Assembly (NCBI GenBank): GCA_028532985.1
Contig: JANCIK010000001.1
Location: forward strand, 1,364,001-1,428,000
Reading direction: 5' to 3'
Source of the DNA: Stropharia rugosoannulata
Taxonomy: Eukaryota > Basidiomycota > Agaricomycetes > Agaricales > Strophariaceae
Length of the DNA stretch: 64,000 nt
Below the pieces are notes generated by a model. That model searched no databases. It saw only the letters and a list, made by a program, of their open reading frames with translations, and was not told the DNA's origin. Positions 20,205 through 43,376 of this stretch are shown here, piece after piece. Positions within the stretch are counted from its first letter, which is position 1; every line of letters begins with the position of its first letter. The translations under genes were made by a program, and so were the position numbers.

Positions 20205-20299
20205 ATGGCTCTCCGATATCAGCGCACCGCTGTCGCTCGCCAATTTACCGTGCTATTGAGGCAACTCGCCATTCATGCGGAGCTCGCAGAGGACTGCAT

Positions 20300-20420
20300 C
20301 AGGAAAAACACTTTTTTGAAAAAAGTCTTTTAATTTTTCAAAAAGACTTAAAAAGACTTAAAAAGACCCCAGGAGACCTGGGTCTCTAGGAGACTTAAAA
20401 AGCAAAGTCTCCAGGTATAA
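20300..20420. repeat. Left terminal region of the Plavaka element
   Basis: Terminal inverted repeat followed by AAAAGACTT repeats and a palindromic block (CCCAGGAGACCTGGG). The same order occurs at 39386-39505 and 47408-47527, marking all three as one mobilisation family. Confidence 0.8.
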
Positions 20421-21005
20421 AAGTTAAAAAGACATTAAAAAGACTTTATGAAGCAATAAAAGACAATAAAAAGTGTACTTTAAGACATCACAGTTCTTAA
20501 AAAAAAGCAAAAAAAAGTAATTTAAAGCGCTCTTGAAGCAATCAAAAGACATCAAGTGCTTCAAATAAAGTATAATAAAAGACCTTGCTAAACATTTAAA
20601 AGATATAAAAAAACCACATTAATACATTATCAGGCATATTTAAGGATCCTAAAAGATTCAAACAAGGTCTTTATATAGCATATTAATAGCTTTTGTAGAC
20701 ACTAAGAGAAACAAATAAACCCACTTAAAGATATAAAGGCACAACATAATGTCTTTTTTTTAAAAATATAAACATTTTTAGAGCTTTAGAAAGACCTAAA
20801 AGAGTACAAAAGAAGACTCTTGTGATATCTCATAGTATCTTTAAAATACTTCTCTATAGCACATTAGCAACCTTAGAAAGCTATTTAGAGATCTTATGAG
20901 ACTCTGCAATCGCTCAAAATAGTGTATTAAATGTCGCCTTTTATCTAAAATAAGTATACAGGGAATCAAAAGAACGATTATAAAAGAAGGCATTATAAAA
21001 GAAGG
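20421..21005. other. Subterminal AAAAGAC-rich DNA of the Plavaka element
   Basis: AT-rich, without coding frames, and packed with short AAAAGAC, AAAAGAT and GTCTTT words in both orientations. Such dense subterminal repeats are the usual transposase-binding region in CMC elements. Nothing else is seen. Confidence 0.5.
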
Positions 21006-22957
21006 CTAGATAATAGTATGAACTACAAATCCAGTGGTAATGCTGGCTCTGCCTCTGGTAGTACTGGTATAGTCGCATTCAAAGTTCAAATCAAAATCTG
21101 CTAAATCATCTGTTTCGTCATACCCAATAAACATATCTGACGAGCTATAAACATAATTAGTAAGGAAAAAACCAGCAAACAAATTAAACCTACCATAGCT
21201 GTTGGAAAGCATCTTGCCTCCACTTTAAAGCCCATCCACTAGACTTCTGCTCGAGAACCATCCAGTTACCCATATGGCGACTATATCTATAGCAATATGA
21301 TTAGTAGTGCAAGGTAATAAGTAATAGCAGAAGCACTGTACAAAACTCTAATAGTCGTTTCGTCAAAATTCTTCCGACTCTTTGTACCATGGCCTTCCTT
21401 GAGCTCTTGTAACGAATGCTCCATCTAAACCAATTGTGAGTAAGGATAGACTAGCGATAAAGTAACATTAATAGAAACATACAGCTGCTAAAGTAATCGC
21501 AAACATCGATGGTGGTAATGCCTTGTCTATTGCTAATTGCCGAGTAACCAGAGTCGTCGAACTATTTGCTCGTGTTGCAGTCTTGAACCACAACTCTTCA
21601 ATTATATGAAGCATCTTCTCTGACTTGAATGGCTGTCCTCCAGTCGTCTTGGCCTAATACTCCTATTAGTATGTTAAATTATGAAAAAATATTACTTACA
21701 GTTGTATCGACTTGATCGTACATGAACTTCGCCTTTTCCAGGAGCCAGGTGATAATTTCTTGATCTTTCTTCTTATTGATACCAAGCCCATATGCATTCT
21801 GGGTCGCACTTCGGGCAGCAGTAATTACCGAGCTCATGAATTGTGAACGAGCATAGGAGATCTAGTACTAGTCAAAATACTTAACCAAATGAAATAATAT
21901 AACTTGTACTCACATAGCGAATGACGAGTGGCTTTGTAGCTCTTTCCTTTGAAACCTGGATAACAAGGGGGGTATTATTGCCTTGCTTAGCAGCTTCACA
22001 GAAAGCTGTCCAGCAAGCATCGATTCGGTCTGGACCTACCCCAGCAGTCCAGAAGCTTGGGCTATACACCATGTTAAAGCGAAGATACTTCTTCGCCTCT
22101 ATAGCTGTATCCATAACATATGGTGGCAAACTATGCTTCGTCACCTTCTTTGAGTGCAAGGAAAACCCACTGTTCTGACTTTCCAAAAACGAAGCAGAAG
22201 TCTTAGAGGAGGTTGTTGACGATGGTGCAGAGCTCTTGAAAGAGGTTGCCACAGACTCCTGGGATCGCCGAGTCCCAAGCCTCTTCGATGACTATAGAAT
22301 ATTATTCAAGGTTAGTTCTATATTGAATAGCTACAAAGTGCTTACTTTATGCTCGGAATCCGATAAAATAATAATCTATATACGATAAGAAGAATAAGTA
22401 TAGCATATACCGATAGTACTAGTAGAGAACATACCTCATTTCTGGCCATAGGAATATCATTAACCCCATCGTCATGATCCTCTTCATTGCCTTCATTTTC
22501 CCCATCTTCCAAACTATCGTCAGTAGTATCCCCATCGTGCCTGTTAGTATTTGTCGCTTCGCCAAAAACCTGATTGCCTATGTCGAGTTCTTCCCTGTCG
22601 AGATTGTCAACTCTTGGTCGCTTAGCTGCTCTATTGCTGTCTTCTTCATTACCATCAGAGTCTTTTTCATTCTCGTTTTCCTCGCCCATAAGTCTTTTGT
22701 TGCGAGCAGTAATCTCTAGCCAAACCCATTAGTATCGTTTCAGCAAGGAGACAAATACATACCTTCTTCTTTCTCAGCCTCAGCTTGCTTTGAAGTACTC
22801 GCATGCTGCTTGAGTATCTGTTGTATCATGTCCTGAGGTATATCATTTATAGTTAAATTCTTTCCCTTGTTAGAAGCTCTTGGCTTCCTTTTCGATGCTG
22901 CCGACTTGCTGGAACCAGACTTCGCTTGGGAGGTAGTGCTTCTGGTGTTGGCCATAG
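21006..22957 (-). CDS. DUF6532 domain protein (Plavaka cargo)
   Basis: Starts at ATG 22957 (MANTRSTTSQAKSG), a Lys/Ser-rich N-terminus. Next comes an acidic region with an NLS-like RAAKRPR and long Glu/Asp runs (22689-22440). After two short exons a Ser/Thr-rich linker leads to the domain: KHSLPPYVMDTAIEAKKYL, RIDACWTAFCEAAK, a QFMSSVITAARSATQNAYGL segment, LLEKAKFMYDQ, MLHIIEELWF, then PPSMFAITLAA, SLQELKEG and a final MGNWM. This order of helices matches DUF6532 of Agaricomycetes, a family of unknown function often found beside transposons. About eight introns were inferred, all with GT..AG borders, and I see no internal break. The last exon (about 21150-21006) reads SSDMFIGYDETDDLADFD. It lies in the element downstream of the transposase gene and is likely nuclear. 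Confidence 0.68.
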
Positions 22958-23169
22958 GGATAGAAAACAAATAGAAAGCAGTATGAGTAAGCTTGCAAAA
23001 ATGAATGCTTATAAGCAGGAAGTAATTGCCAGGTGTATATTTTACGAAGGGAAAGACACGATACGAGCAACTATTTCCGGTCTGACTAAGCTGGAATGGC
23101 TTATATAATATAAAAAGATAGCGACTACCGAGTACAGCTCTACCATATAGTTTGGTATGCATATTTACT

Positions 23170-26100
23170 AGACCAGTTATTAATTAAAAGGATGTGCATC
23201 TATCAAGTATATTATCAGATGTCCATTCATTAGGCATTGGGGCAAGCTTGGGAAATACTGGAAATAGCATGCAACTTTGCCGAATATTTGAGACTGGAAT
23301 AATTGAGCACCAGGCTTGAGTACCTGTCGGATTGGCACCTGCTAAAGGTTCCATCTTTTTGATTAGATACATGTTACCATTAGAAACAGATGGCTGGGAT
23401 GGTATTGGTGAGTACCACTCAATATATGCTAATGGCGAAGTTGGCCAATTGTGAGGGGCATCTTGTTGCCCTAAGCGAGTATCAAAACCTTCGGAAGAGT
23501 AAAAATAACCTTTACTCTTCCTATTCTTGTGCCTTGATTAAAAGAATTAGAAGTGCTATAGCAACATATAATCTACATACCTATAAGCCCAGTTGACTCT
23601 GCTTTATCATTAACCATAGCTATAACAGTATCAAATTTTCCTAAACTGTTCTGTTGTGATATTGGAATAGCTTTCACTGAGTCTATTTCCCTGTATTATC
23701 GTCATCAAGACTGGTAGGACTAAAGCGAAGTATGTTGTAGACATCAACTCGTGTAAAGGGTAAAGTAGCCTCAGCTAAAGCTTGTTGCGATAAAGGCTGG
23801 GACCGGAGACCATTAATAAAGACCTTCAGTGAGTGAATAAAGCCACGAGCATTATGCTTCTCCTGGATTAGAGAAAGCATTCTTTTAGGATAATTGGGAT
23901 ATTTTGCAAGGGATTTGACTGATTTTGGTGGTTTATTTAATGGTGTATTCATTTGTAGATTTGCTTCAAAGCCAGTAACTTTTTCCTGTCGTGAAAGCCA
24001 AGTAACCATTTGAGGAAACTCATCCCGTTGATTACTTGCTCTCCAACCATCCTTTGCAAAGTCGATGTGTAGTCGTTCAAACATCTCAGTGTTATAGTTG
24101 TCTGTTGTCCCAAAGAGCTTGATAGAATCAACATAATGCAGCAAAGAGTGAAACTTGGGGATATTGAAGTTGTCTCGTACACCAACATTGAGAAAGTATG
24201 CTTTGTGTTGGTGAAACCGCTTCAGAGCATCGGTCAAATACTCTAAAGTAGTTGTATCATGGGTGGGATATTGGGCAATATAGATAAAGTCTAGCAGTGC
24301 TGTAATTGCCTGGGCAGCTTGAGTTGGAATACTTCCGACTAAGCAGCCTAGAAGAATTTTAGCCATGTTTTTCCGTTCAGGCCCAGTTACTTGAGAGAGA
24401 GATGTAAATCCATTTTTGAAGTGGCAAACTCCAAAGGAAGGTGGAAGACTTTGAATTCTCCGATCTAGCTCTCCTTTCTGTAAAAGCTTTCCACACCATG
24501 AGATTAGATGCTTTAGGACCCCTTGATAAAGCTGGTGTAATACATCAGGTGTTAATGACTGGTGAATGTCGGTCAGAGGAAAGTCTTCCCAAAAAGGCTT
24601 GAATACACTGCCTGCAACATTATGGGACATGCAATATTTATGAAACTGGTTCTGGTTGTCTCCCGAATAAAGTTTGGCCTCTTCAATGGTGGATTTTGTC
24701 CATCGCTGAGTTCTGAGCTCCGATAGTGCTTCATCTCCAAGATTATTGGCCTTTGCTTTGCATTTGACACAAGTCCCATATTTCGTACAAGAAACAAGAC
24801 ATTGTTCAGGATAGTCGGCAACATAGCAAGTAAGGATAGGAAAAACAAGACAAGTAGCACCATCAGAGCTTGCCATTTCTATGCCCTCATTTCCAGCTTT
24901 AATGAGAGGTTCTAAAACGATTTTCATCGATTCATGGAAAAGCCTTTGAACTCTAGATCGGTGTTCATTTTCACTCATTTGTGATCGGTTGATTTTGTCA
25001 ACTGAAAGGTAGGCTATAAGGATGGTAGCATGGGAAGAGGGCTTTCTTCTTGTTGCTTTAGGGATGTTTCCAATCGTAAGATAAACAGGATAGGCTGATT
25101 TTCCCCCTGAAAACTGGGTTAACTGGGTTTTGTCTGTAGCAATTATGACAGGAGCTAAAGTAGCTCCAACTGGAAGTCGGCTCTAAAGTGAAGTAAATAC
25201 AACTTGCTATATCAAGAATTGCAATTTGAATATAACATACCTGAAGAACACTCCACCATTGACCTGTCCACATTTCATTGAATATTCGCCCATCTTTACG
25301 AGGACTAGTATACACCTTCTTAGGCTTAAATTTCATCATAGGCGACAGATGGGGTCCTTCCAAAGAGACTCGATGGCTTGTATTGGATTACGATGCCGAA
25401 TAGTATATACTTCATTAGGTTTATCGGCAAATCTTAGTTTGCGAGTCTTCCATTCACCTGCTTTCTCGGGCATAGAGTCAAGTTTCTTGTGCAAACCCCG
25501 AATATTATGGTATGAGAGGCCAAGCTTTTCGACAACCTTGATAGTTTGAGTTAGTAAATACAATTGTATTAGTAGTATTGAACTTACCCCAGGAATTTTA
25601 AGTAATCGGTCAAATGCATTATGGCCTGGCCCATCGTTAACTGCCCATTGAGCTATTTTCCAATCTAGCTCTGAATGAAAGGGATGAAACTTGGGATCCA
25701 CTCCCTCTTGAAGCATATGAACATCACCATCGCCATCCAAAGTGTGGATATGTGGGTTACTGGTTGCTTGATATCAAAGAATTCTACCAGCAGTAGGATG
25801 CTCTTCTTCAATCCTTTCATCGTCATCATCATCATCTAGTAATCGCTTCATTGACAGCACTCTACTGCGATAAGCAGCAGTTTGAGGACCTGGGCCTGCC
25901 TCACCCTCCAAGTAGTCGTCAGGACCTGGAATAAGAGCAAACTCATCTACAATATTGTCGAATTCCTCATGAAAAAAGTCCTCAAGATCTTCGCCATCTA
26001 ATTCTTCGGGTGTTTGGTTACTAGCTTGCTGTCCAGTATTCAGGGCACTGCTAGCAATGTTGTCGTTGGATCCAAGGTCGTACTGTATTGGGGCATTTTC

Positions 26101-26250
26101 TTGTATCTCGTAGGTGTTTTCAGCATTCAAATCCTCTAGTTTTTCCTCCATATACCAGGAGCAAGATCGTGATGAGGTTAAATGGGCATTTACCCCACCC
26201 CAGGTTTTGAAAAATCTTTCGCATCCAGCAGGGCATTCAAAGTTGGGCAT
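23170..26250 (-). pseudogene. Plavaka transposase with C2H2 zinc finger
   Basis: Catalyses cut-and-paste of the element. ATG at 26250 opens MPNFECPAGCERFFKTWGG; C..C and a following HLTSS..C form a degenerate C2H2 finger. An acidic linker follows. The conserved core reads LDWKIAQWAVNDGPGHNAFDRLL, KLGLSYHNIRGLHK, SLWKDP, WTGQWWSVLQ, TDKTQLTQFSG, PVYLTIGNIP, DYPEQCLV, LTPDVLHQLYQGVLKHL, FHSLLHYVDSIKLFGTTDNYNTE and ERLHIDFAKDGWRASN. The C-terminal part holds LAYIEWYS and CMLFPVFPKLAP. Breaks: an in-frame TGA at 25774-25776, and likely one-base losses near 25350 (C run), 23685 (A run) and 23500 (C run). All three indels are in homopolymers. The core is otherwise well preserved, so this is a recent pseudogene or an intact gene damaged by sequence error. 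Confidence 0.82.
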
Positions 26251-26406
26251 TGCTTATCAGACTCCAAGAGAGATAGTGGGGGTTTTGGTACAACTCTCGG
26301 TTGCATTCTCACACATATATCTAAAGTACCAATTACAATTGTGCTATTAAAAGCTGTAAGCTCACGATTGCCAACCATATACACCAAATCGATTTAACAT
26401 ACCTAT

Positions 26407-27082
26407 TTATATAGTATATTTCCGTGAGTAAGCTAAGGTCTTCTTTGCATATCTGATCGTTTTTGCTAATAGAAGCTGCTTTTGTCGAAGCAATGCAAGA
26501 AGCTTTACTCTTTTATTGCTCTTATGGCGATAAATGGCTTCCAAAGCTTTTGACTTACGATACAATCGCCGATGGTACCGAAGTGTCGTTTGCTGCAGCT
26601 CAATACATTTGGCCTTTAGTCTTTTGTTGGCAGCTGGTCTGGGCCAATATGGCAATGTAAGCTAAATAGTATGAATAGTATATTAGCAATAGCAGTTTGG
26701 AGGCAGTTTGTATAAGTGCGATTTTGAAATAGTACATACCTGTTCATCCGAAAATTGGGGCCATCTATTATATTTCAAAGTATAAGCATTGTAATATTCA
26801 CTACGATCTGAGAAGTCTTCAGGATGGAGTATTGCATAATCCAATGACAGACAATGCTGGTAGGACTTAGTAGATTCGGAATAGACATAGAGAAATACAT
26901 ACTTGGGAAGAGTCGGAAGAGTCAATGTTCTCAGGAGCTGCATCATCGGAAGTAGCAGGAGCAAGCAAATACTATAAGTACTAGTAATTAGCAGGCTGTT
27001 TCGGGAATGGCAAGGTTATAGTAATTACTCTTTCTTGCTCATAGTAAACTGAGCTTTCAACCTCATCACTATTGGGAAGCAT
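26407..27082 (-). CDS. Small basic protein in the Plavaka element
   Basis: Four exons can be joined. ATG at 27082 begins MLPNSDEVESSVYYEQER. A second exon reads APATSDDAAPENIDSSDSSQ, a third HCLSLDYAILHPEDFSDR to WPQFSDEQ, and the last is strongly basic (LPYWPRPAANKRLKAK then many Arg/Lys/Leu) to the stop at 26407. It is about 160 residues. No domain recognised. It lies upstream of the transposase on the same strand, with the transposase start 157 bp beyond its end, so it could be separate or an upstream product of the same locus. Confidence 0.45.
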
Positions 27083-28544
27083 GAAATTTGGGGTTTCGAA
27101 AGCGAAGTCAAGTGAAAGGTCTCAAGCTGGTAAATAAATCATGTGATTATTGTTAATGATTCCGGGACTACAACAGGAAACTTTGGGCAGAGTTGTGAAT
27201 GTAATATTGATTGATTTGGTATGCAAAATACATGAAATGCATTTGCCATTTAACAAGTACTATTGAAAATTCTTATACAAAACAAGTTATATATTGACCC
27301 TAACAAGACTAGATACATATTATACAAAACATTGATAGGGCGCTTATGAAGATGATAATTCTGCTCGGAATAACGCGTTCAAGGGCTCGTTAGAAAGCTT
27401 GAATCAACATGAAGATGCTCCAAAAAACCGCGAGGCAATTGAGGAAGTTGTTCTTGACTTAGAGTAAAATTAGTCCAAGACAGGGAGATGGAGGAGGACA
27501 TGGCTACTCACAGGCATCCAGGAATCTCAAAATTTGTGTAAGGAACGCGTTCAAACCCCACATAGATGGTGAATAAACATGCCAAGTTGCGAAAGCCTTT
27601 GTTGAAAATTGAAGGAAGGAGATGATATTTAACTCTGCAGCAGTAGCCATATGGTCATTAAGGAGGTCGGATATTGATGGCTTATCGGCTGCCGAAACCT
27701 AGACGAATAGTCTATAACTATGTGTAGTAAAAGACTCTAAAAAGAATTAGGTAAAAATACGAACAGGAACCCAAGATATGAAGTACTTTACCTGGGGGAG
27801 GGAGGAGGAGGAGGAGCACATAAGTGATTTCGGGTTCCAGGCAATGATATGAAGCGTTTGAGGGCTCGTTGGAAAGCTACAATCAAGGTGAATTCAGCAT
27901 TGCAAGAATTGAAGAGATGGAAGACGAACCTATGTCAGAATCAATGGGATACCTCAAAACTCCGAAGTTGGACACAACTTTAGATGCAGGATGCTTGGTT
28001 GCTCCATAAGTTAAGCCGTCGTAGAGGCAGGTACCTAATGTAGTTCAGTAAGTGTTCCCAAAGTTTGAAGGACTCAGGACAGCTGGAAGCGCACCTATGA
28101 ATTAATCTGTCCCATCTAGAGGAAGGAGGACACCTGTATCGACATCGCCTTTATACCCACTAAATCGCGCAATGAATGGTACTGTTGGATAGGTATTAAT
28201 GACACGAATCAGGAAATGCTAAAATCATACTGTTTGGTTGGTTATTGGCAGATATATGACGAAAATTGTGTCCTAAGGGCACTTGACACCTATAAGATGG
28301 TACTTGTCTAGTACAGGATGGATTGGCATGATCTTGGAGATGGTTTGCAGAGGACTAAGATGTTCTTGAAGGTGCAAATGTGAGAAGAATGCTATATCCC
28401 CAGCCTACACCCTTTGCACTATGGTTATCTCCCAGACACTAGCAATCCACATCTTACTATGACTTAAGCAAGATTAAAACCCCACTATAGCCTGTAAGAA
28501 GTGTATTACCAATGTCTTTAGATCCACTAGCAGGAAAGGGTTGA
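27083..28544. other. Divergent intergenic region inside the Plavaka element
   Basis: About 1.46 kb between minus-strand and plus-strand gene blocks, so it probably holds both promoters. Two diverged copies of a segment (GGGCTCGTTAGAAAGCT near 27384 and GGGCTCGTTGGAAAGCT near 27863) recur with similar flanks. No coding frame stands out. Confidence 0.45.
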
Positions 28545-30324
28545 GTGGGCCCAAAGCCAGTAAAAGACAGAAACAGGACAGAAAGAGTAAGGGCAGTGGT
28601 GGTATTTGGCTGGTGTCGCTTACCTGATCGATGTTCAAGCTTGATCGCCAAATTTAATTCTTTATCTAATCTTCATCAGCAACCACCACATCGCCAGAAT
28701 GGCTCGCCTTCGAAGCCAGCCAAAGCTCGCATTGCCCAATCTACTGTTTCTACTATTTCCAAGAAAGACCTGGAATCCTTACTTCAGTTTCTAGAATCTG
28801 ACACTACTGCTCTTCGCTATCTCAAATCTAATAATAGAGCTGCCTTTGCAGCTTCTGCCAAAGCCTCTGAACTCGGTGCAGTCTATTTCTCTGGCAGCTC
28901 CTTTCCTAGCATATATGAAACAATCACATCTGCTCTTCCACCTCGCCATACACGCTTCCCTACTTTGTTTGCTGCCTATAAAGCTGGAAAAACTGCAGCA
29001 AAGTCGTATAAAAAGAGAAAATCCAACTTTACCAAAGCAACTAGACTTAACTGGACTAACAAGGATCGGGACGAGTTTCTTAAAGGCATCAAGAGGGTAA
29101 AGGTTCAGAAACTGGCTGAAAGCGACTACTACCCCCCCCCCTATGCATATCATCACCGAGAATCAGGAAATCATGGACAAATGGAGGGACCATTTTACAG
29201 TAGGCAAACAGGCCGATGCTAGGATTCCTCGAAAGCCATTACATCTGCTTGATCCTTCTAGACTTTCTTTGGACATTGGTCCCGATGAGAATGTGATTCT
29301 CGAAGACTCTGAAACTGGCGAAATTGTTGGGGTTGTTATTCGTGGCTTTTGCAAGCATAAGGGTGCTCTCAAATGGGCGAAGGATACTGCCGAGTTTCAG
29401 ACTGACATTCGCTGAAATCTTAGGGTATTCTTGTTTACTGTCTTTGTAACTTATACTAATATTTTTTATAGAAAGAAGATCCTGGGAAGCTTGTTCAGCT
29501 TGGTTGGTCTGCAGGTGCCAGAAGCCGATGCGAGTTTGGCTGGGTCCGAAACATCGTCGCATCAAAGAAGAAACTTTCGGACGATAAAAGGGTTGAGGCC
29601 AACATCGAGGGTTCCAATTTGTTTGCCTTTATATGGCAGCTTATGGAGAAACAGCTTCCTGAGGAGGTGACGACTGATATCAAGAACTTTTCAAAGGTGC
29701 TTAAAATTCCTTCAAACAATGGAGAAGGTAACAACTACCAGGAGTGCCATGAAGAATCATCGGTGAGGACAATGAAAGAAGGTGATTCGGAGGCTCCAAC
29801 TACCGATGTTACAAAGTATACTGTGTCTCTGCCCCATGAGTCATATGATTTCTTTGGTACTGGTCTTGCCCCACCAGGAGCTTTTATCACAAGAAATTAT
29901 TCAAGGTATATTTCTCTTGTCGCTATATCTCCATTTCTGATCATCCACTTTAACTTATAGGCATATGCATAAGGAAGGTCACCCCCACACATATGGAGCA
30001 ATGCTTACCCTGCATCGTTCCCATAACTGTGTGTCGTATGGAGGAAACTTCTTTCTTCCAGAATATGGGATTCGTATCCAGCAAGCAACGAACACTTGTA
30101 TTGTCTGGCAGCCTAAAAGGCTTCATGGAACAGGAGTCCCCAATGTTGATCCGACCACTGAAGACCCTGATTTCCAGCAGCTTGTCGCTGCTATCGTCAC
30201 TTCAAACACTTTAGCAGCAGCTTGGAGGAAGTATTGTGAGGGAAAGGTAAACCTAAAGGAGTTTGAGAATATGGTTGATGAAGTTGAAGCTGAGGGGCCT
30301 TTGAATCACGAAGGCGATAATTAG
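28545..30324 (+). CDS. 2OG-Fe(II) dioxygenase-like protein, fungal TET/JBP-like family
   Basis: The N-terminal part (28700-29130) is helical and Lys-rich with KDLESLLQFLES and a KKRKSNF basic run, perhaps DNA-binding. After a run of ten C at about 29132, where one C seems to be missing, the frame continues with MDKWRDHF, PLHLLDPSRLSLDI, a GEIVGVVIRGF segment typical of the family core start, then an intron at about 29420-29470. The next exon reads QLGWSAGARSRCEFGW to LAPPGAFITRNYSR. After an intron at 29906-29960 the catalytic segment follows: HKE (likely HxE metal pair), YGAML, a GGNFFLPEYGI strand and then VWQPKRLHGT with the distal His. The gene ends at 30324. The order H-x-E ... GG.F ... 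LHGT fits the double-stranded beta-helix oxygenases that oxidise 5-methylcytosine or related substrates; actual substrate unknown. The start is unclear: 28545 is not an ATG. Confidence 0.65.
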
Positions 30325-30719
30325 TAGACTAAAGCTCCTAGTCATTATTATTTACAAAGTACATTCTACTATTGTACTATGGTTGCGACGATACCCATTA
30401 TGTACTGGTATAGCGAAGTTGGGTAAATAATCAGGTGATCATTATAGTTACACAAACAGTAAATGTTTTTCGCTGTAGGCTTACTATATTCTGTGCTGTT
30501 TCAATCGACCCATACATTTCTTACAATGTCTACAACAACTTCTTGTCTTTCTATCAAAATGCCCATAGTAGCTAGTCGGCAAACCCACCAGGTGTATTTT
30601 GAACTGTTTTCTAAGTGTATGTTTATATGCCAGCTCAATATAAGCTTTACTGATCGTATCTGCTGCTATTAGTCGGAATACATAGTATTCACCTTATAGC
30701 TTATATGTTTTCATGGCTA

Positions 30720-31764
30720 TACATATTATCCTCAACACTGCAAGAGATTCAGGAGCTTATTGCTCCTGGATGGACGAAAAGTATGTTGTATTTATTTTGG
30801 ATTGTGATATACATTCTTATGTAGTGAAATGTAATAGTTCCCTTTGAGCTTCGGATATTATTTTAGAAGCTTTGTTTTGGGAGCTGCCTAGCTACAAGTC
30901 AGGAGGTGTCTTTCGGCAGTTGGGATATAAGGCTTGGTTAGCAAGCCGAAACACTATGCCTTCGCTGACATCACTGGACCAATATGCAACCCAGCTCCAA
31001 TTCTGTGAAGACTTTACTAGTTTCTACCGACAGCATCGCCTTTCCAGCTGCACCAATGCATTTGCTAACATTTGGGCATTGCAGTTCAATTCCCAGAGTC
31101 AACAACCAACAGAATACAATCGTGAAACTCTATGCGATTATGTTCTCCAATATGCAAGTAAAAGCCTTACAAATTCACTGTGGTGATGTTGCTTGGTTGG
31201 TTTCGGAGGTTTTGGATAAATGGGTCGATTCATTGGGTCCCCATTTAGTCAACCTTCAGGTTATATATGACTGTCGTATGCCAATACTACCGATACAGGT
31301 TAGTTGTATACTTCTATGTTACCCTATCTTTACTCATATTCTTTATATTAGGATAATCGTCTTGGACTATATCCATGGTGTTCTAGAGACTGGGCCTCTG
31401 CTTTAGGTCGTCTTTCATTTCTGAAATCGGTCATTATCTATACTCCTCGGTTGCTACATTACCATATGTACGACACCAATCCTAGTATGGGTTATATGAG
31501 GGACTTTGTTTCCTCACTTGTGTCTGTTGTTTGGTCGCGACAATGCCTCAACTGGAACGAGTCTACTTTCTGACAATCCAGGATAAGCATGAAAAGGACG
31601 ATCAAAGTTACAGTGATGGCATACAGTTTCTAGCAGAACGACAAGTATTAGATCAGAATACCCAGAGTTGGAATGGGTGGGTTTGCCGACCAATCAACTT
31701 GTATAATAGAGCCCGACAAGACCTGCATAGAAATGACCACCAGTTGCGACTTTTCTTTAGTTAG
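30720..31764 (+). CDS. Unknown Plavaka cargo gene, possibly F-box/LRR-like
   Basis: Exons read LYILSSTLQEIQELIAPGW (about 30720-30780), then EALFWELPSYKSGGVFRQLGYKAWL to the TEYNRETLC region (30870-31140), then a frame with VKALQIHCGDVAWLVSEVLDKW and LGPHLVNLQVIYDC, an intron at about 31300-31351, and DNRLGLYPWCSRDWASALGRLSFLKSVIIYTPRLL. The last part, reached after a probable one-base loss near 31530, is PQLERVYFLTIQDK to the stop at 31764. Leucine spacing of the LNLQ/FLKSV/LERVYF kind is reminiscent of LRR segments in fungal F-box proteins, but no F-box is clear. Treat the function as unknown. Confidence 0.42.
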
Positions 31765-32043
31765 TTTTTGTAATTAGATTAGAATTTACCCTATAGCTAT
31801 AGAATTTATGGTTTTACAGTGGAATGTACAAGTTTTATATGGTTATAAGAAAATGTACATAAAAAAGACTTGTAGAGACCTAAAGAGACCTACAGAGACC
31901 TACAAAGCTATACTTGGTTTAAGGCAAGGCTAAAAAGACTGCCGAAGACCTATCAAGCTATTTAAAGATATGATTGGGGCTTTAATTAAATCTAGTTTGA
32001 AACGATGGACTAAAAGTTACTAAAATGTCTTTAAATAGCTCTC

Positions 32044-32064
32044 GGCAAAAAAGTGATTTTCCTG
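32044..32064. repeat. Right terminal inverted repeat of the Plavaka element
   Basis: Reads GGCAAAAAAGTGATTTTCCTG, less one base shown here as the inverse of the left end. It is followed by AT and then the restored accessory gene 2 frame. The preceding 200 bp contain AAAGAC and GAGACCTA words similar to the left end. Confidence 0.75.
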
Positions 32065-32490
32065 ATGTGCAACAGCGGGCCTTTTCACTTTCCTCTACAG
32101 TCTGCTCAGTCCCTCGTGCGCGCACTGGTAAAGTCCTTATGTTCATGCAAGCGCTTCCTCTGCTGACGTTTTCCTCCAGGATCGCATTACACTGCCTTTG
32201 CGCTTTATCGATTTCAATCGCCAATTCCTGTCTTTAGTCATGACGATCGTGTTTTACGAAGGCCGCGCTCAGCGCAGATTCAGCGATGATCATTTCGATG
32301 CGCGCATGCTCAGCAACGCCGCTCTTCACATTCTCGATCGGTACAGCCATCTTGGCATGCCTTTTCACAATCTCCCACCCTCGGAACCAACAGGGACCGC
32401 CATTCTAGACGTAGATCCCGACGCTGCCCTTGTAGTAGATGATATTAGCTACGATTGAGCCCGTGCGCGGCTCTGATGGATCGTTTAGTG

Positions 32491-35009: not shown

Positions 35010-36890
35010 CTAAGTGTCTTCTTCGCCCCAGTCATCATCGTCTTCTTCATCTTCTTCCACTGTAAGCGCACCGCTACCCGAGGGTACACCGGGCTCATCA
35101 AAGATATAATCTTTGGGAATAGCTGGCTCATAGTCCGGTGCCTCTAACATTTTAGCGAGGTTCTCCTTGGTCTGATCAATTATATCATCCAAGCCGCCCG
35201 GTAAGCGCAGCTGCCTTCGTGCAAAGTAGGGAATGAGGCGGAACGCCGCCACCTTATCCTTCAACACAGAGCCGTCCATTTCTGCCACTAAGTATGCTCC
35301 ACCGTCTTTCCGTGCGATAACGATGTAAGGCCCGTTCCACCGTGCGAGCATCTTACGGTTCAGACTGGATTCTATGCCCGAGTTCCTCATTAGCACTACA
35401 TCTCCTGGCTTAAACACATAGTCACGGATTTTAGCCGAGTGCTTCTTTTCAAATGCCCTGATTGCATCCCTTTTCGTCTTTGATACTCGTGCGCGCATCT
35501 CCTCTACTGTGTCGCGATGCTTGGCTAGTGCGCGCGCGCGATACCCTACTAACTCCTCCGTAGTCAGTACGCGATCTGGGAGTTTCACCAGCCAAGTCGC
35601 TTCTGCTATGTCAAATGGTAGTATGGGGTGCGCGCCCGTTACCATGAAGAATGGGGAACACCCGAATCCTCGTCGCACAGTGATACGATCCGCCCACAAC
35701 ACATGGTAGAAGAATCTACTCCAACGCTTATGCGCGCCTTCTGTCCCTCCACACGCTTTCCACAACATCTGTCTTATGTCCCAATGAGGACGCTCTATTT
35801 TTCCATTCGCTTGCGAGTTGTACGCGGAGATAGTAATCCCTGTAATCCCGTACTTCTTTTCTAAATACTTGAGCGCTGCGCGGAACGGTCCACCGTTATC
35901 TGTGATGATTTCTTGTAGACAGCCCCAACGGCAGATAATGTCCTCGAATATCCACTGCGCTATCGCACGGGCATTCTCTTTCTTTAATGGCCGTCCTTCC
36001 GCCCATGAGCTCAGCGCACATCTTCCGTGCACTATGTAATTATACCCATTGGAGGCCGGGGACATGTGCATAGTGTCCGCGTGTAGTTGCTGGAAGATAG
36101 ACGGCGTGTGTGTCTCGGTGCGCGGGATCTGGATGATCGTCTTCTGCCTTAACTGACAGACATGACATGTTTTCACATACCAGTAGACATCCCTTTCCAA
36201 CTCAGGCCACCAGAAGCGCTCAGCTAGCAGTTTGCGCGTAGCGTACGCTCCTCTGTGCCCTAAGCTGTCATGCGCTGAGCGCAGCATGCGTGTCCGCTGC
36301 GCCTGATCTATCACCAACTTATGCGCGTCATCTATGGATCTCCGGTACATTCGCCCATCCTTGTCTAAGAAGAAGTTACGAGCATTCCTCGTAAAGTTCT
36401 GATATTCTCGCTCCGTCATGCCTTTAGGCCTAGTGGTTGGATTCTGCAACCAGTAGCGTATCATCGGCAATTTCTCATCCATATCTTTTCCTGCAGACGT
36501 CCTGTTGCGCTCATCATACTCCTCATCCTCCAGATCCTCTATTCTGGAGTCGGGTATTGCGTGCGCTAGTATGAATTTCTCTAAGTACTCGCGCTGCGCG
36601 AGCGGCACACTCTCTTTCTGTATGAAGTCCCGCACGGCCCGCTTTTCCGCTTCCGTCTCTTTCCGTGCGCGCTCGAGCTCCTGCTGGAAACAGCCTATGG
36701 AGCGCGCTTCTGGTAACTTGCGCGCAGTGGGACCTTCAAACAACTCGTTGAGGAGTCCTGTATATAGATACCCTCCGCGATCATCGATCTGTTCCTTGAA
36801 TTCCTCAAAGTCCAGGGGATCTGGGTCATCTTCATAGACTTTCTCATATTCGAGCGGTCCCGCCTCCTGATCATCATCTTCTTGGTGCGC
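35010..36890 (-). CDS. Ty3/Gypsy integrase
   Basis: Inserts the cDNA into the host genome. The frame joins the RT-RNase H frame near 36890 through a one-base shift. Domains in order: an HHCC zinc-binding N-terminus (H..GHRGAYATRKLL then CHVCQ), a DDE core with D in LHADTMHM, D in ITDNGGPF and E in NSQANGKIERPHW, and a GPY/F module (LARWNGPYIVIA). No chromodomain is seen. The C-terminus ends in a long Asp/Glu run just before the stop at 35010. Because the only upstream connection is via a frame change, either programmed frameshifting, a lost base or pseudogenisation is possible. It is followed convergently by accessory gene 4. Confidence 0.88.
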   Translation of the reverse strand, partial: AHQEDDDQEAGPLEYEKVYEDDPDPLDFEEFKEQIDDRGGYLYTGLLNELFEGPTARKLPEARSIGCFQQELERARKETEAEKRAVRDFIQKESVPLAQREYLEKFILAHAIPDSRIEDLEDEEYDERNRTSAGKDMDEKLPMIRYWLQNPTTRPKGMTEREYQNFTRNARNFFLDKDGRMYRRSIDDAHKLVIDQAQRTRMLRSAHDSLGHRGAYATRKLLAERFWWPELERDVYWYVKTCHVCQLRQKTIIQIPRTETHTPSIFQQLHADTMHMSPASNGYNYIVHGRCALSSWAEGRPLKKENARAIAQWIFEDIICRWGCLQEIITDNGGPFRAALKYLEKKYGITGITISAYNSQANGKIERPHWDIRQMLWKACGGTEGAHKRWSRFFYHVLWADRITVRRGFGCSPFFMVTGAHPILPFDIAEATWLVKLPDRVLTTEELVGYRARALAKHRDTVEEMRARVSKTKRDAIRAFEKKHSAKIRDYVFKPGDVVLMRNSGIESSLNRKMLARWNGPYIVIARKDGGAYLVAEMDGSVLKDKVAAFRLIPYFARRQLRLPGGLDDIIDQTKENLAKMLEAPDYEPAIPKDYIFDEPGVPSGSGALTVEEDEEDDDDWGEEDT

Positions 36891-38941
36891 GTCGCCTCAT
36901 CTCCCGGTTGCCCTTCCCTACGTGATAAACCATCCGCACCAAAGGTTTTGCCCGCAACATGTTTCAACTGGAAGTGATACATAAGTATTTTATCTATCCA
37001 GCGATTAATAGTCGCATTAGGGCCCATGCCCGGATTATCCAACATGCCCTTCAAGTATTTGGCATCCGTTTCCACCACCAGCTTGCGCGCACCGATGAGC
37101 CAATAATAACAGGCTTGTAGCGCACGTAAGAGTCCGTACAACTCCCGTTTGGGCTGTGAGAAGCGCTGCTCGCGTTCCGTTAACAGTATTGATCCGAAGC
37201 GCGCATAGACCCTCTTCTTCGAATCTTGTGGGTCCTGCTGATAAATATAGAACCCTACTGCTCGCCACGATGTGTCAACAGCCAAAGTAATCGGCCCTGG
37301 CAATGTGTAGTCCAGTGGTTTCACGCAATGTGCGTTGCGCGCACCGTCTTTCAGCGAGTCCATGCTAGCTTGCTGAGCGGGCCCCCACTCAAAGGGCTCT
37401 TTCCCACGCAATAGCCGCTGTATGTGCTCTGCGCGCTTCGCATAGTCTGAGATGTAAATACGGAGCAGACCCATTGTACCCATGAATGCGCGCACATCAC
37501 TGATATTCTTGCATGGTCCCCAATTGAGAATCGCATGCACTTTATCAGGTGCTGGCTTGCGCCCTTCGTACGTGCACAAGTGCCCCACCACTACTATCTC
37601 AGTCGCGCACAGTATGGACTTCTTTCCACTAAATGTTCCTCCTGAGTACTTCATGCGCTGCACGATTCTGTTGACATTCAACATGTGTTCCCACACAAAT
37701 CTCCTTATTCCTTTATTCTCTGGTATCGTCTCGTATCCTCCTCCTTCTAACTCGTAGCGCGTTTTAGGTCCCCTAATAGGTACATCATCTATATAGGGCT
37801 CTGTAACTTCAGGTATTTCATCGCGTAGTATATATGCGACATCCTCATGAAAGATGGGCACGGAGTTTGTCCATCCCATAGGTAGGGTTACTAAGCGCAG
37901 CACACCGAACGGCGTCTGGAATGTAGTCAAGTCTCTAGAGGACTCAGCTAACAGCCGCTCATCGTACCCAACATACAAATCCAGGATGCCGCCACATGCG
38001 TGCCCCGCAAAGTGTTCCGCCAGACTCTCCGCTGCTGGAGGTAGTCCTGAATGTGCAATGGTTACCGCATTTAACGGTTCGAGACTGTGCACAATTCTGA
38101 ACGAGACCCCGTCTTTCTTAGTTACTGTAAACCAGCGCGACCGGTACGATGAGCTCGAGGGTTCATACGTGCCTGCGCGAATCTTGGTGGCGATGAATTC
38201 ACATACGCACTCATACATCCCAGGTGGTATCGGAATGTTCTTCAATACCCAAGGCGTGTGCTCTACAGTAGGAATATCTACTGGAGGGAAGAAGTCCGTA
38301 TGGAATCTACCCTTCTCTGTGTCATCCCACGCGAACGCCTCGTTCTGCTGCATGAAAACTTGATGCACCAACTTGCGCTCCTCGGGCCACAGGAAATCCC
38401 CTTCATGCACTTTGTCAATCCCTTCCATGCGCTCAGCGGTGTACCGACCTGTAGGTACGAAGTCTGGCAGATGTGGTGACAATTGCGGCATGTCCTTTAG
38501 TGGGTCTCCTTTTATCTCCCTCACTATTCTAAACTTCTCTGGTAAATCTTGATAGACGGGCCTGACTTTCTCAGCCACTGGCTTATACTTCTTTCCTGCG
38601 AGCACCGTAACGGTTGTGGCATTCTTGCCAGTCAAGCGCTTATGCGTTACTCCTTGTTTCTTACTAGGGACCTGTTCCTCGTGCGATGCGCGGAACTGCC
38701 CTCTAGGCCCTCCCTTGACTACTTCCTCTTTGCGCCATTCGCGCTGCTGAAAATACTTGTATATTCTTTCTTTTTCATCATCCTCCATCTTAGCTTCATG
38801 TACTGCTTGAGCCATGTATACATCCCTGAGCTCAGCGCTCCCAAACCGCTTCTTATTCTTTGGTAGCGCGTACCCCGCTATCTCTATTTTCCCCGTGCGA
38901 TCATCTCTATCAAACATCAACGCGACCTCTCCTTGACGCAT
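36885..38941 (-). CDS. Ty3/Gypsy reverse transcriptase and RNase H
   Basis: Copies element RNA into DNA. The ATG at 38941 overlaps the protease stop. The N-terminal 190 residues are a linker with basic and acidic stretches. RT motifs follow: WFTVTKKDG, FRIVHSLEPLN, a FQTPFGVLRLVTLPMGWTNS segment and the catalytic TEPYIDDVPI (YIDD), then FSGKKSIL and VVVGHLCTYEGRKP. RNase H has TLAVDTSWRAVGFYI, a QPKRELYGLLRAL segment, LVVETDAKYLKGML and a C-terminal FGADGLSRR. The frame stays open to 36695, but after about 36890 the sensible reading switches to the integrase frame. All catalytic residues that I can check are present, so the RT itself looks functional. Confidence 0.9.
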
Positions 38942-39381
38942 CAAATCATCGAGGATTGAAAATCCTGATCTGCGCTAGGGTTTTCCGTTGTGCCAGGGTC
39001 CTGCAATTTAGGTTCGCGTTGCACAATCTTGGGACCGCACCCTCGGTTATAGGTGGGTACTACCAGCTTGCGCTGTGTGTTGGGATCAGTGAGCGTAAGC
39101 TCAACCGTCCCATCGCCGCGCGTCTTCACATTGCTCTCCGTGAGGATCTCGAACGGCCGGCCCAAGAGTACCTCGTAAGCCGCTGGGCTGATGACATGCA
39201 CTTGTAAATACACTGTCAGTCCGTTAAACACAAATGGTACGTTGCGCGCTAAGCCCTTGGTGGATTCCACCTGCTTATTCGCGCTCTGCATCCGTATAGT
39301 GAAGTCCGGGTCCCAACTAAGTCCTAAGCACTCCGCGGTGTCCTGTGCCATTGACACAATCTGCGACCCACTGTCGAGCAC
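38941..39381 (-). CDS. Ty3/Gypsy aspartic protease region
   Basis: Opens at the MITE boundary and reads LDSGSQIVSMA, the DSG active site of retropepsins, then VYLQVHVISPAAYEVLLGRPFEIL, which is the flap and the hydrophobic-hydrophobic-Gly (LLGRP) motif. A basic segment (RKLVVPTYNRGCGPK) and a linker lead to the stop at 38941, overlapping the RT start. The upstream part of the polyprotein is separated by the 1,036-bp transposon at 39386-40421. The N-terminal limit used here is not a true start codon. Confidence 0.8.
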   Translation of the reverse strand: MLDSGSQIVSMAQDTAECLGLSWDPDFTIRMQSANKQVESTKGLARNVPFVFNGLTVYLQVHVISPAAYEVLLGRPFEILTESNVKTRGDGTVELTLTDPNTQRKLVVPTYNRGCGPKIVQREPKLQDPGTTENPSADQDFQSSMI

Positions 39382-39385
39382 TGAT

Positions 39386-40421
39386 CAGGAAAAAGACTTT
39401 TTTGAAAAAAGTCTTTTAAATTTTTAAAAAGACTTAAAAAGACTTAAAAAGACCCCAGGAGACCTGGGTCTCTAGGAGACTTTTAAAGCAAAGTCTCCAG
39501 GTATCAAACTTTTAAAGACTTTTTTATGTCTCTGGGAGTCTCTTTAATGTCTTTTTATGTGTTCATAATGTCTCTAGATGTCTCTAAATGTCTTTTAATG
39601 TTACATTTTTGCTTTATAAAAACATTAAAAACATGACCTCATCTTAGCCAAATCACTACTACTTAGATTAGATTGTATTTGTCAGTAGGTAATTGGGTAT
39701 ATTTAAATGTACTTAAGATTTGTCATGAAGTAACTATATTAGTCAGCACCTTACATAAACATACAATGGCAAATAAACCATCACATTAACTTGGGGACAA
39801 TGGGAAGAGGAACTTATGTTGTGGAAATAATTTGCATTTGCCAGGAATTGAACCAACAGCTTCATGCATGACTTAAAACCAGCATACTTTCCCCTACACC
39901 ATGTGCCTGTGTATATAGACTCACTGCAGGTCAAATATGATGGTAATGCTCTAGACTACATTAATTTATTACATCACAAGTCATTGAATTTAGTCATGTT
40001 CAGATGTATTTTATATAAGATTTACAATGTAGATTACAAGTAATAGTTGACAATAGCTATTCATAAGTCAATTTTTTCCTAGGTTCTTATGTCTTTAAAT
40101 GTCTTTTTGAGTCTTTTTGTAGCTTTTTAATACACTTTATGAGACATTTTTAAAATCTTTTAGAGACATAAAAAGATTTATACAATTACATCAATACATT
40201 TAAATACTTAGAAAATTTGAAAGACTTTAAAAGACATAAAAAGACCTAAAAAGACATTGGAAGAATTACAAATTTCCCTAAAGTCTCTAGGAGACCTTTA
40301 AAAGTATAAAAAAGACATAAAATTCACCAAAAGACATGTTGATGTCTCAAAAAGACACTAAATTTCCCAAGAGACACATAGATGTCTCAAAAAGTCTCTT
40401 TTCAAAAAAGTGGTTTTCCTG
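39386..40421. mobile_element. Non-autonomous Plavaka-related transposon, copy 1 (1,036 bp)
   Basis: Starts CAGGAAAAAGACTTTTTTG and ends AAAAGTGGTTTTCCTG, bounded by AT on each side. Both ends match the 11.7-kb Plavaka element at 20300-32064, and its left 120 bp are nearly the same. The inside has no coding capacity, many AAAAGAC/GTCTTT words, and a Pol III-like bipartite promoter (separate entry). It interrupts the gag-pol between ORF 2 and the protease, so this retroelement copy cannot make an intact Gag-Pol. It is nearly identical to the copy at 47408-48456. Confidence 0.85.
39844..39901 (-). ncRNA. tRNA-like Pol III promoter (A and B boxes) in the 1-kb transposon
   Basis: On the minus strand an A box TGGTGTAGGGG (39891-39901) fits TRGYNNANNNG, and a B box GGTTCAATTCC (39844-39854) fits GGTTCRANNCC, with 36 nt between them. 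This is typical tRNA spacing. The T-arm and acceptor do not pair well, so it looks like a decayed tRNA or tRNA-derived SINE body, not a working tRNA. The same pair occurs at 47878-47935. Confidence 0.5.
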
Positions 40422-40423
40422 AT

Positions 40424-41264
40424 GCAACGTCTCCGCGTGTCCCTTGCCGTTGATGAGCGGAAATACCGCCTTTAGATGGTGCGATTCGCGCGCCACAATA
40501 AGTCCCTTAGGCTTTTCGCCTGGCTGCAGAGTCGAGACGTACTGCTCGTACGGGTCTTCCATGATGATGGTCCCCGGTTGCAGTCCGCTGCGCTCATCTG
40601 AGCAAGTAAGGAAAGTGGCCACTGGTAGCTCATCCATTTGCATAAACTCCTCTTCCTCTTCTTCCTCTGCTAGCCGCGTGATAGCTTCATCTACCTCGCG
40701 CTCTTCTTCATCGTAGTCTAATTGTAGTACGCGCATCGTGTTTAAATCCAATGGTACCTTTCTTGATACTATGCGCTCAACGAACTTTCTTCTGAAACCT
40801 GCAGTCGATATGCCTAACAACTGGCCCTGCGTGATCTCAATTGTCTGATTTTCTAAGTGTTTGAGGACGGCGTCAGCCTGCGCTTCATCTTCGATAGGTG
40901 CGCGCAGCTTATAGGCCGGCTTCCTCTTCTCTACTACAGGTATGGGCTCCTCCCTGACCTTAGGTTTTACTTTCTCTGGTACGCGCAGCGGGGGTACCAT
41001 TACATATGGCACTGCTGCTGGTCGTGCACTAGGCCCAGCTTTTGCAGGAACCTCAAACACTACTTTCTTCTTTACTGGTGCGCTGCGCGCACCTGGCTCC
41101 TCCACTACTTCTCGCAACTCATCTTCCTCCTCATCACTCGCGTCCTCAACTGATGCTCTGGGTATATTCTTGATTGGTAACTTCTTGTTTGCGCCCTCCG
41201 GGTTCTTGGGTTTATCAGAGCCGCTACGCATAACTCTGCCCGCGTTTCCCTTCATCAGACTCAA
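40424..41264 (-). CDS. Gypsy ORF 2 between gag and protease
   Basis: Opens as a new frame directly at the gag stop codon (41261-41264), suggesting frameshift translation; the first ATG is at 41255. It is cut at its 3' end by the 1-kb transposon at 40421. The N-terminus is basic, then comes a Pro/Val-rich linker and a helical region QADAVLKHLENQTIEITQG with LLGISTAGFRRKFVERI, an acidic run of Glu, and a terminal ESHHLKAVFPLINGKGHAETLH which is normally followed by the DSG protease. So this is the upstream part of the protease-bearing pol. With the transposon removed, an in-frame join to the DSG segment would also need one base change. Confidence 0.75.
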
Positions 41265-43213: not shown

Positions 43214-43376
43214 CGTTCCAAAAGATGATCTGGCTTCTTCTGGCTCGGCGAGCGATGAAGGCGCAGGAAATTTGCCTCGCTTGTTACTTGTCCCCGTTTT
43301 ATTTGAAATTTTTGTAATTTATTGTAATAGGCGCAAGCCGTAGTTCCTGAAACACTAAATGAGATTTCTGAACCTT

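Follow-up and report, generated by a model that had tools for sequence, protein, structure and literature searches.

Positions 20297–32067 of the window (the whole 64,000-nucleotide stretch of DNA from Stropharia rugosoannulata that was analysed) are a single multi-copy DNA transposon of the PlavakaB type that moves by cut-and-paste. Besides its transposase, the element carries a DUF6532 gene and a gene for a protein that, judging from its sequence, is likely a divergent HxE-type (PE-type) member of the Tet-like 2OG-Fe(II) enzymes. The best explanation, held at a probability of roughly 60%, is a PlavakaB-type transposon with a DUF6532 helper and an HxE Tet-like oxygenase that would act transiently and in trans on 5-methylcytosine. 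Elements of this kind have been in print since December 2025, and the present one adds another member to them. Its features are as follows.

20295..20296, no strand: target site duplication TG, left
20297..32067, no strand: whole element with PlavakaB-type ends, 11771 bp, five genes
20297..20318, plus strand: 22-bp left terminal inverted repeat with a single difference to the right arm
20320..20377, plus strand: left subterminal 10-bp repeats (AAAAAGACTT units), repeat families D1-D3
21006..22955, minus strand: DUF6532 gene, 8 exons, modelled at 497 aa, with an open frame in the window copy
23140..26250, minus strand: Plavaka transposase gene, weak N-terminal C2H2 match, broken in the window copy
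26250-25588, 25536-25241 and 25182-23681, minus strand: modelled transposase exons, the 3′ part to about 23140 being placed by eye from database relatives
26407..27082, minus strand: small basic protein gene, 164-aa model
28699..30324, plus strand: probable Tet-like 2OG-Fe(II) oxygenase gene, three exons, broken in the window copy
28699-29424, 29472-29905 and 29961-30324, plus strand: oxygenase exons
29968..29976, plus strand: HxE motif (codons H-K-E), proposed Fe(II) ligands
30124..30126, plus strand: codon for the distal His (in LHGT) of the proposed Fe(II) triad
about 30705..31764, plus strand: right-hand gene with an uncertain start codon, modelled at 317 aa in a sibling copy; the window copy has a frameshift
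31862..31909, plus strand: right subterminal 10-bp repeats in the same orientation as the left set, repeat families D1-D3
32046..32067, minus strand: right terminal inverted repeat, 22 bp
32068..32069, no strand: target site duplication TG, right

The inverted ends of the element read CATCAGG..CCTGATG. A pattern derived from them has six sites in the window at up to three mismatches, compared to a mean of 0.01 in shuffles; two of these form the termini of the transposon, and the other four come from two short elements. The first-pass annotation had placed the element at 20300..32064, and its bounding by inverted repeats stands, with the exact ends corrected to 20297 and 32067. The host genome holds 26 left/right end pairs, which leaves one left and two right ends unpaired (the pairing used 27 of 42, 28 of 31, 33 of 33, and 24 of 32 matches from four genome searches and left out second pieces and 140-base or diverged matches). 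The oxygenase lies inside all 26 pairs and the transposase inside 23, which answers in the affirmative whether other copies with these ends carry the oxygenase. CATCA..TGATG termini are present in all 12 copies that were read, and equal 2-bp flanks in 11 of the 12 fully read copies, the exception being C11_1337. Ten of the 11 sibling copies are 98.8–99.7% identical to the window copy, which points to a recent spread of the element. Together with the Pfam matches, the end pairs bear out the earlier view of a single Plavaka element that holds both a DUF6532 gene and what is probably a Tet-like oxygenase, and the two additional genes of unknown nature that it had listed are those at 26407-27082 and about 30705-31764. 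Neither of them matches a family above cut-off in a Pfam search. An F-box/LRR identity of the right-hand gene, suggested by eye, was rejected as it has no Pfam support.

The transposase clearly matches PF18759 (Plavaka; E=2.4e-86, 290 bits, cut-off 26.3), and Plavaka transposase relatives are found in the protein database, which includes fungal proteins. Its sequence, read by eye, contains C(2)C and H(3-4)H motifs that precede the last catalytic E, an arrangement described as a PlavakaB feature (PMC12730594). CVKC, HSLLH, and NTEMFE are seen in the window open reading frame 23683-25182 on unaligned inspection by eye. The window copy is broken in this gene, in the oxygenase, and in the right-hand gene; in the copy C12_2461, the 507-aa oxygenase is open together with the 823 residues of the transposase that were read.

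The left gene clearly belongs to the DUF6532 family (PF20149), which has no assigned function; residues 248-424 of the spliced model match with E=5.6e-20 and a score of 72.5 bits (cut-off 24). Outside this element family, 22 of the 45 DUF6532 loci have a Plavaka transposase within 10 kb, where 2.3 are expected (135 of 135 Plavaka rows, 70 of 70 DUF6532 rows, and 88 KDZ loci that were merged by hand from 123 rows, with approximate sizes for C3, C4, C5, and C15). On this count, DUF6532 looks like a standard companion of Plavaka. The link was not found in the literature searched.

The oxygenase gene had been placed at 29140-30324; its 3′ end is retained, and the gene extends further upstream to 28699. 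Of 12 copies, 4 have a frame that is open over its full length and 8 a broken one; the product is 507 aa long in two of the open sibling copies and 511 aa in one open copy that lacks the transposase. The copies have been methylated, as follows from a strong decay signature: their CpG sites decay much more rapidly than the remaining C/G sites, with a summed CpG:non-CpG ratio of 26.5 for 55 pairs among 11 copies (C10_927 dropped). One control pair from another Plavaka family gives a ratio of 5.5 (only over a 3.0-kb shared stretch, the absence of the oxygenase being taken from one search), and 28 pairs of eight KDZ loci range from 0.9 to 20.3, with high values for young pairs only and with KDZ families that are themselves TET-linked. 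These controls show neither higher nor lower decay due to the oxygenase. The proposal that the enzyme helps the element to escape DNA methylation is thereby narrowed: some help is possible, but lasting escape is not supported, given the CpG decay that the copies carry. Non-CpG changes in the oxygenase comprise 13 altering and 8 silent ones, compared to an expected ratio of about 2.6:1, and hence give no selection signal; for the transposase, the non-CpG counts are 9 altering changes, one of them a stop, and 11 silent ones, and the DUF6532 row was dropped from this comparison because it ran beyond the frame end.

The few open frames, the missing selection signal, and the heavy CpG decay would all fit an oxygenase that is chance cargo, useless to the element and retained only through the youth of the copies. 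This explanation is nevertheless unlikely, since the gene is present in every end pair and was kept in three copies that lost the transposase; these share one deletion junction, and each has its own 2-bp duplication. A decayed and diverged oxygenase relic elsewhere in the genome (L035), along with a Suillus discolor relative of 35% identity, points to long persistence. TET genes have also been captured in parallel by many transposon lineages (PMC12730594), which likewise speaks against a mere passenger.

The identification as a Tet-like oxygenase is based on matches to PF20515 ("Tet-like") in both the oxygenase and the Suillus relative, and on the HxE...H motif. The matches are sub-threshold: the oxygenase gives E=0.0011 and 0.00045 (best stretch at profile positions 17-107) and the relative E=0.01 (best stretch 143-208); the scores of 19.4, 20.7, and 16.3 bits all lie under the curated cut-off of 27. 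The relative (P0122) is the single one recovered from the protein database with oxygenase residues 100-480. A search with the whole oxygenase returned no relatives, a miss that is attributed to sensitivity, as the shorter query recovered the Suillus protein. PF20515 found nothing over six frames of the genome and equally nothing in 14 control genomes, which renders that search uninformative, and NCBIfam gave a chance-level match only.

A canonical TET (PF12851, HxD, AG type) is ruled out. The oxygenase has no match to PF12851 (canonical TET/JBP) at E up to 1, and hhalign against 11 canonical TET exons from this genome gives a probability of 0.3% and a score of 16.6, where 60 shuffles reach up to 24.8. 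The canonical exons match PF12851 and carry HRD in most of the 11 that were read, whereas the oxygenase of the element carries HKE. The replacement of Asp by Glu in the metal motif and the lack of detected similarity to the canonical TETs of the same genome leave room for a different chemistry, in which the HxE enzyme does not demethylate 5-methylcytosine but produces a different modified base or has RNA or protein as its substrate. Kojima 2025 (PMC12730594) keeps such an option open and names CMD1 and JBP, but also describes HxE, the hallmark of the PE type, as likely to work like HxD. As the only relevant family matches are Tet-like, a different chemistry is judged improbable, slightly more so than chance cargo. 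That the protein is not Tet-like at all, with the motif and weak Pfam matches arising by chance, is very improbable: the matches are indeed sub-threshold, the hhalign comparison is without signal, two AlphaFold2 runs yielded no usable model (mean pLDDT 33.8 and 30.7) and so no support for a double-stranded beta-helix fold, and PDB sequence searches gave one chance-level ribosomal match for the oxygenase (E=1.5) and none for the relative, but out of 24736 Pfam models the two homologues match one and the same, with their best stretches in different parts of it, and they conserve the HxE and the distal His (HKE and LHGT in the oxygenase, HSE and VHGT in the relative).

Kojima (2025, PMC12730594) has described PlavakaB elements that carry TET genes, have CATCA..TGATG termini, make duplications of 2-3 bp, and encode oxygenases with HxE (PE type), with families known in Agaricus bisporus and Gymnopus confluens. 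They share the ends, the 2-3 bp duplication, the Plavaka transposase, and the HxE Tet-like oxygenase with the present element. A possible difference is the DUF6532 gene carried here; the term "DUF6532" has no occurrence in the main text of that paper. The same paper notes that the Plavaka link had already been reported; an association of Plavaka with TET/JBP was reported by Iyer et al. 2014, as cited in PMC12730594 and PMC8290104, and the likeness conveyed by these citing papers is a Plavaka transposase near a TET/JBP gene. The suggestion that the pairing of Plavaka and oxygenase is a distinct association therefore falls, since published TET+ Plavaka families have ends of this type, which also rules out its novelty. 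KDZ elements with canonical TET/JBP (CcTET-like, AG type) are likewise transposon-borne carriers of a Tet gene but have an unrelated transposase. In this genome, 27 of 32 Tet_JBP matches have a KDZ transposase within 10 kb (counted over 56 of 135 Plavaka rows and the 88 KDZ loci).

In the preferred explanation of a transposon with a helper and a transiently acting oxygenase, the transposase would recognize the CATCAGG ends, and probably the subterminal AAGAC repeats, and would insert the element with a 2-bp duplication, consistent with the ends, duplications, and copies observed. The DUF6532 protein, a companion common to many other Plavaka elements, would most likely help transposition or the expression of the genes of the element. 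The oxygenase would most likely oxidize 5-methylcytosine on DNA in trans, supplied from the few open copies. Its effect would be limited in time, with promoters transcribed or ends cut before methylation returns, and it would not keep copies methylation-free in the long term.

A broader reading, tentative and short of an even chance, takes Plavaka as a two-protein machine of transposase and DUF6532 with varying silencing-related cargo. Here, the cargo would be the HxE oxygenase acting in trans on a modified base, and such cargo could outlive the transposase, as suggested by the three copies that kept the oxygenase after its loss. If this holds, DUF6532 would gain its first assigned role, that of a transposon-encoded helper; the link to Plavaka in any case offers a concrete hypothesis for this family. 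The strong CpG decay indicates that a Tet-like gene aboard does not protect the element from long-term methylation damage, which limits the usual story of an escape from silencing. With a young, many-copy TET+ Plavaka family, some copies of which are open, beside many KDZ-linked canonical TETs, two kinds of transposon-borne oxygenases can be compared in one nucleus.

The host genome of Stropharia rugosoannulata (47.97 Mb in 20 contigs) is the source of the window (C1:1364001-1428000), in which a Plavaka element is located between terminal inverted ends, CATCAGGAAAAACACTTTTTTG and, inverted, CATCAGGAAAATCACTTTTTTG, that have one mismatch in their 22 bases.

Element and its two unassigned genes (window coordinates)
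20297-32067: whole element, 11771 bp
26407-27082: small gene
~30705-31764: right-hand gene

The window copy is flanked by TG on either side, and AAGAC-type 10-base repeats lie immediately internal to each end in identical orientation. The gene content proposed by the first-pass annotation, a Plavaka transposase, a DUF6532 protein and two unassigned genes within one element, holds: the transposase matches PF18759 (E = 2.4e-86), and the left gene, with eight exons and 497 amino acids, matches PF20149 (DUF6532, E = 5.6e-20). A C2H2 match at the N terminus of the transposase is weak and under the cut-off (E = 0.032). Neither the small nor the right-hand gene has an above-cut-off family in Pfam. 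All exon borders are those of our predicted, transcript-free models.

The window harbors further mobile sequence. Two short elements of about 1.05 kb (39383-40424 and 47405-48459) are 96% identical to each other with near-identical ends, and their similarity to the 11771-bp element is confined to roughly 137 bases at its start and 35 at its end; the second is flanked by AG/AG, and the first, partly within a retroelement-like ORF (40347-41342), has no matching flanks. At least 12 more left-end matches, of 140 bases, occur elsewhere in the host genome. Another Plavaka-like transposase fragment, diverged and interrupted by stops, lies at 58587-59843 (+; Plavaka match 59379-60083). Large ORFs at 35010-43318 (-) resemble a Gypsy-type retroelement, with zinc knuckle, reverse transcriptase and integrase-like stretches recognized by eye.

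Four DNA queries (each of the two ends, the oxygenase and the transposase) were searched against the host genome, with all counts being lower bounds, and matches were joined into pairs by contig, strand and distance. At least 27 left and 28 right ends form 26 pairs, leaving one left and two right ends unpaired. As anticipated, further copies with matching ends carry the oxygenase, which lies inside all 26 pairs; the transposase lies inside 23. The window copy and 11 siblings, twelve copies together, were read from end to end, and the remaining 14 are known by search coordinates. The outermost 30 bases are identical in all twelve on the left and in eleven on the right, where sibling C8_446 differs by one inner base. 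Matching 2-bp flanks, at differing sites, surround eleven copies, the flanks of C11_1337 being unequal. Identity to the window copy is 98.8-99.7% for ten siblings and 94.2% for C10_927, which has extra sequence in the same alignment. We regard the family as a real, recently active TET-carrying PlavakaB. Two inverted pairs lie close together on one contig each (C9:218036-230137 with 230295-242384; C7:349046-360754 with 381521-389547), reflecting recent inverted duplication, nearby insertion or an assembly artefact.

The three-exon, 507-residue oxygenase model is open from start to stop in four of the twelve copies (507, 507, 511 and 492 residues), the shortest missing 15 residues directly downstream of its HxE motif. 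It is broken in the other eight, including the window copy. There, two one-base frameshifts and a premature stop interrupt this gene, one frameshift and a premature stop interrupt the transposase, and the right-hand gene is frameshifted. Some frameshifts fall within single-base runs and may stem from errors of assembly. C12_2461 has an open oxygenase, and its transposase is open over the 823 residues read.

Three copies (C7_381, C8_446 and C2_187) have a deletion of about 3.7 kb (near 23197-26887) with a common junction, which takes out almost the entire transposase gene along with some of the small gene and leaves the oxygenase in place; the 511-residue open frame belongs to one of these copies, C8_446. 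They occupy three insertion sites with three distinct duplications, and may have been mobilized in trans. Gene conversion or repeated deletion is a possible origin of the shared deletion, because C7_381 is otherwise near-identical to the transposase-bearing C7_349.

The sole relevant Pfam match of the oxygenase is PF20515 ("Tet-like 2OG-Fe(II) oxygenase superfamily"). The full-length protein matches it at E = 0.0011 and a segment of 300 residues at E = 0.00045, both under the 27-bit cut-off; the single exon ORFs do not match PF20515. The whole protein retrieved zero matches from the protein database, and residues 100-480 retrieved one, a partial 346-residue protein from Suillus discolor (35-37% identity, E = 1.8e-56). 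This relative matches PF20515 at E = 0.01, with its best stretch at model positions 143-208 versus 17-107 for the oxygenase. Both proteins have an HxE motif (HKE in the oxygenase, HSE in the relative), the hallmark of PE-type TET/JBP enzymes (PMC12730594, accessible text), and a distal histidine (LHGT and VHGT, respectively). Compared as profiles, the oxygenase and 11 canonical TET exons from the host genome showed no similarity (score 16.6; 60 shuffles reached up to 24.8), neither protein has a meaningful match in the PDB, and two fold predictions of the oxygenase gave no confident model, which counts against a Tet-like reading. Overall, the oxygenase is a likely, though unproven, member of the Tet-like group. 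A diverged, stop-riddled relic of an oxygenase homolog lies at C11:1898500-1902500 (36% identity over the best 90-residue stretch).

A Plavaka-oxygenase link, it was suggested, would be a distinct association, but TET-carrying PlavakaB elements are in print (Kojima 2025, PMC12730594). According to the accessible text of that paper, the PE type, with HxE instead of HxD, is encoded by five transposon lineages, Plavaka included; A. bisporus and Gymnopus confluens are the sources of TET-carrying Plavaka, all of which are PlavakaB, end in 5'-CATCA..TGATG-3' and duplicate 2 or 3 bp; and the association had already been implied in previous work. The same text places the Agaricomycotina PE type in one family of one order, Agaricales. 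Since Suillus discolor belongs to Boletales, its protein, known here as protein alone, would widen that range. The host genome also has 32 matches to canonical Tet_JBP (PF12851), 31 of them above cut-off; a KDZ transposase is located within 10 kb of 27 of the 32, and one or more of the 56 Plavaka matches used within that distance of two, so the host genome contains both canonical KDZ-linked TETs and the HxE enzyme carried by Plavaka.

Across the twelve copies, 274 of 689 CpG positions vary solely by C>T or G>A, and 141 of 4108 non-CpG C/G positions show transitions; counting a position as CpG when any copy has CG favors seeing change, though hardly tenfold. Such CpG-biased transitions are the mark of deaminated 5-methylcytosine. 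The premature-stop codon of the window-copy oxygenase reads CGA in six of the twelve copies and CAA in three, and that of the transposase reads CGA in all eight other copies having the site. Since their CpG positions carry this mark, the copies have been methylated, and a lasting escape from DNA methylation is not supported. The controls, which are weak, do not indicate that the family decays less or more than other elements. A temporary or trans effect of the oxygenase against methylation is possible, and its anti-silencing role is put forward as a hypothesis.

DUF6532 was also counted beside Plavaka transposases across the host genome, excluding the TET-carrying family and using a distance of 10 kb. 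A Plavaka transposase adjoins 22 of 45 DUF6532 loci, and the remaining 23 have none within that distance. Random placement gave a mean of 2.29 and a maximum of 7 (2000 trials) versus the 22 seen, and rotation a mean of 1.34 and a maximum of 10 versus 21 (contig C15 omitted). For comparison, two of 88 loci of the also abundant KDZ transposases lie within 10 kb of a Plavaka transposase. Many of the near DUF6532-Plavaka pairs are divergent, with a spacing of 3.3-4.4 kb. One such element (locus L042) holds a transposase and DUF6532, shares about 6.5 kb with a second locus (L043) and terminates on one side in CCTGATG; its opposite end was not found, and no oxygenase is among the matches listed there. 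In the accessible literature, DUF6532 appears within a Pfam-domain list for Ganoderma. DUF6532 loci adjoin Plavaka transposases far above chance, and DUF6532 as a Plavaka companion is the most useful new lead from this analysis.
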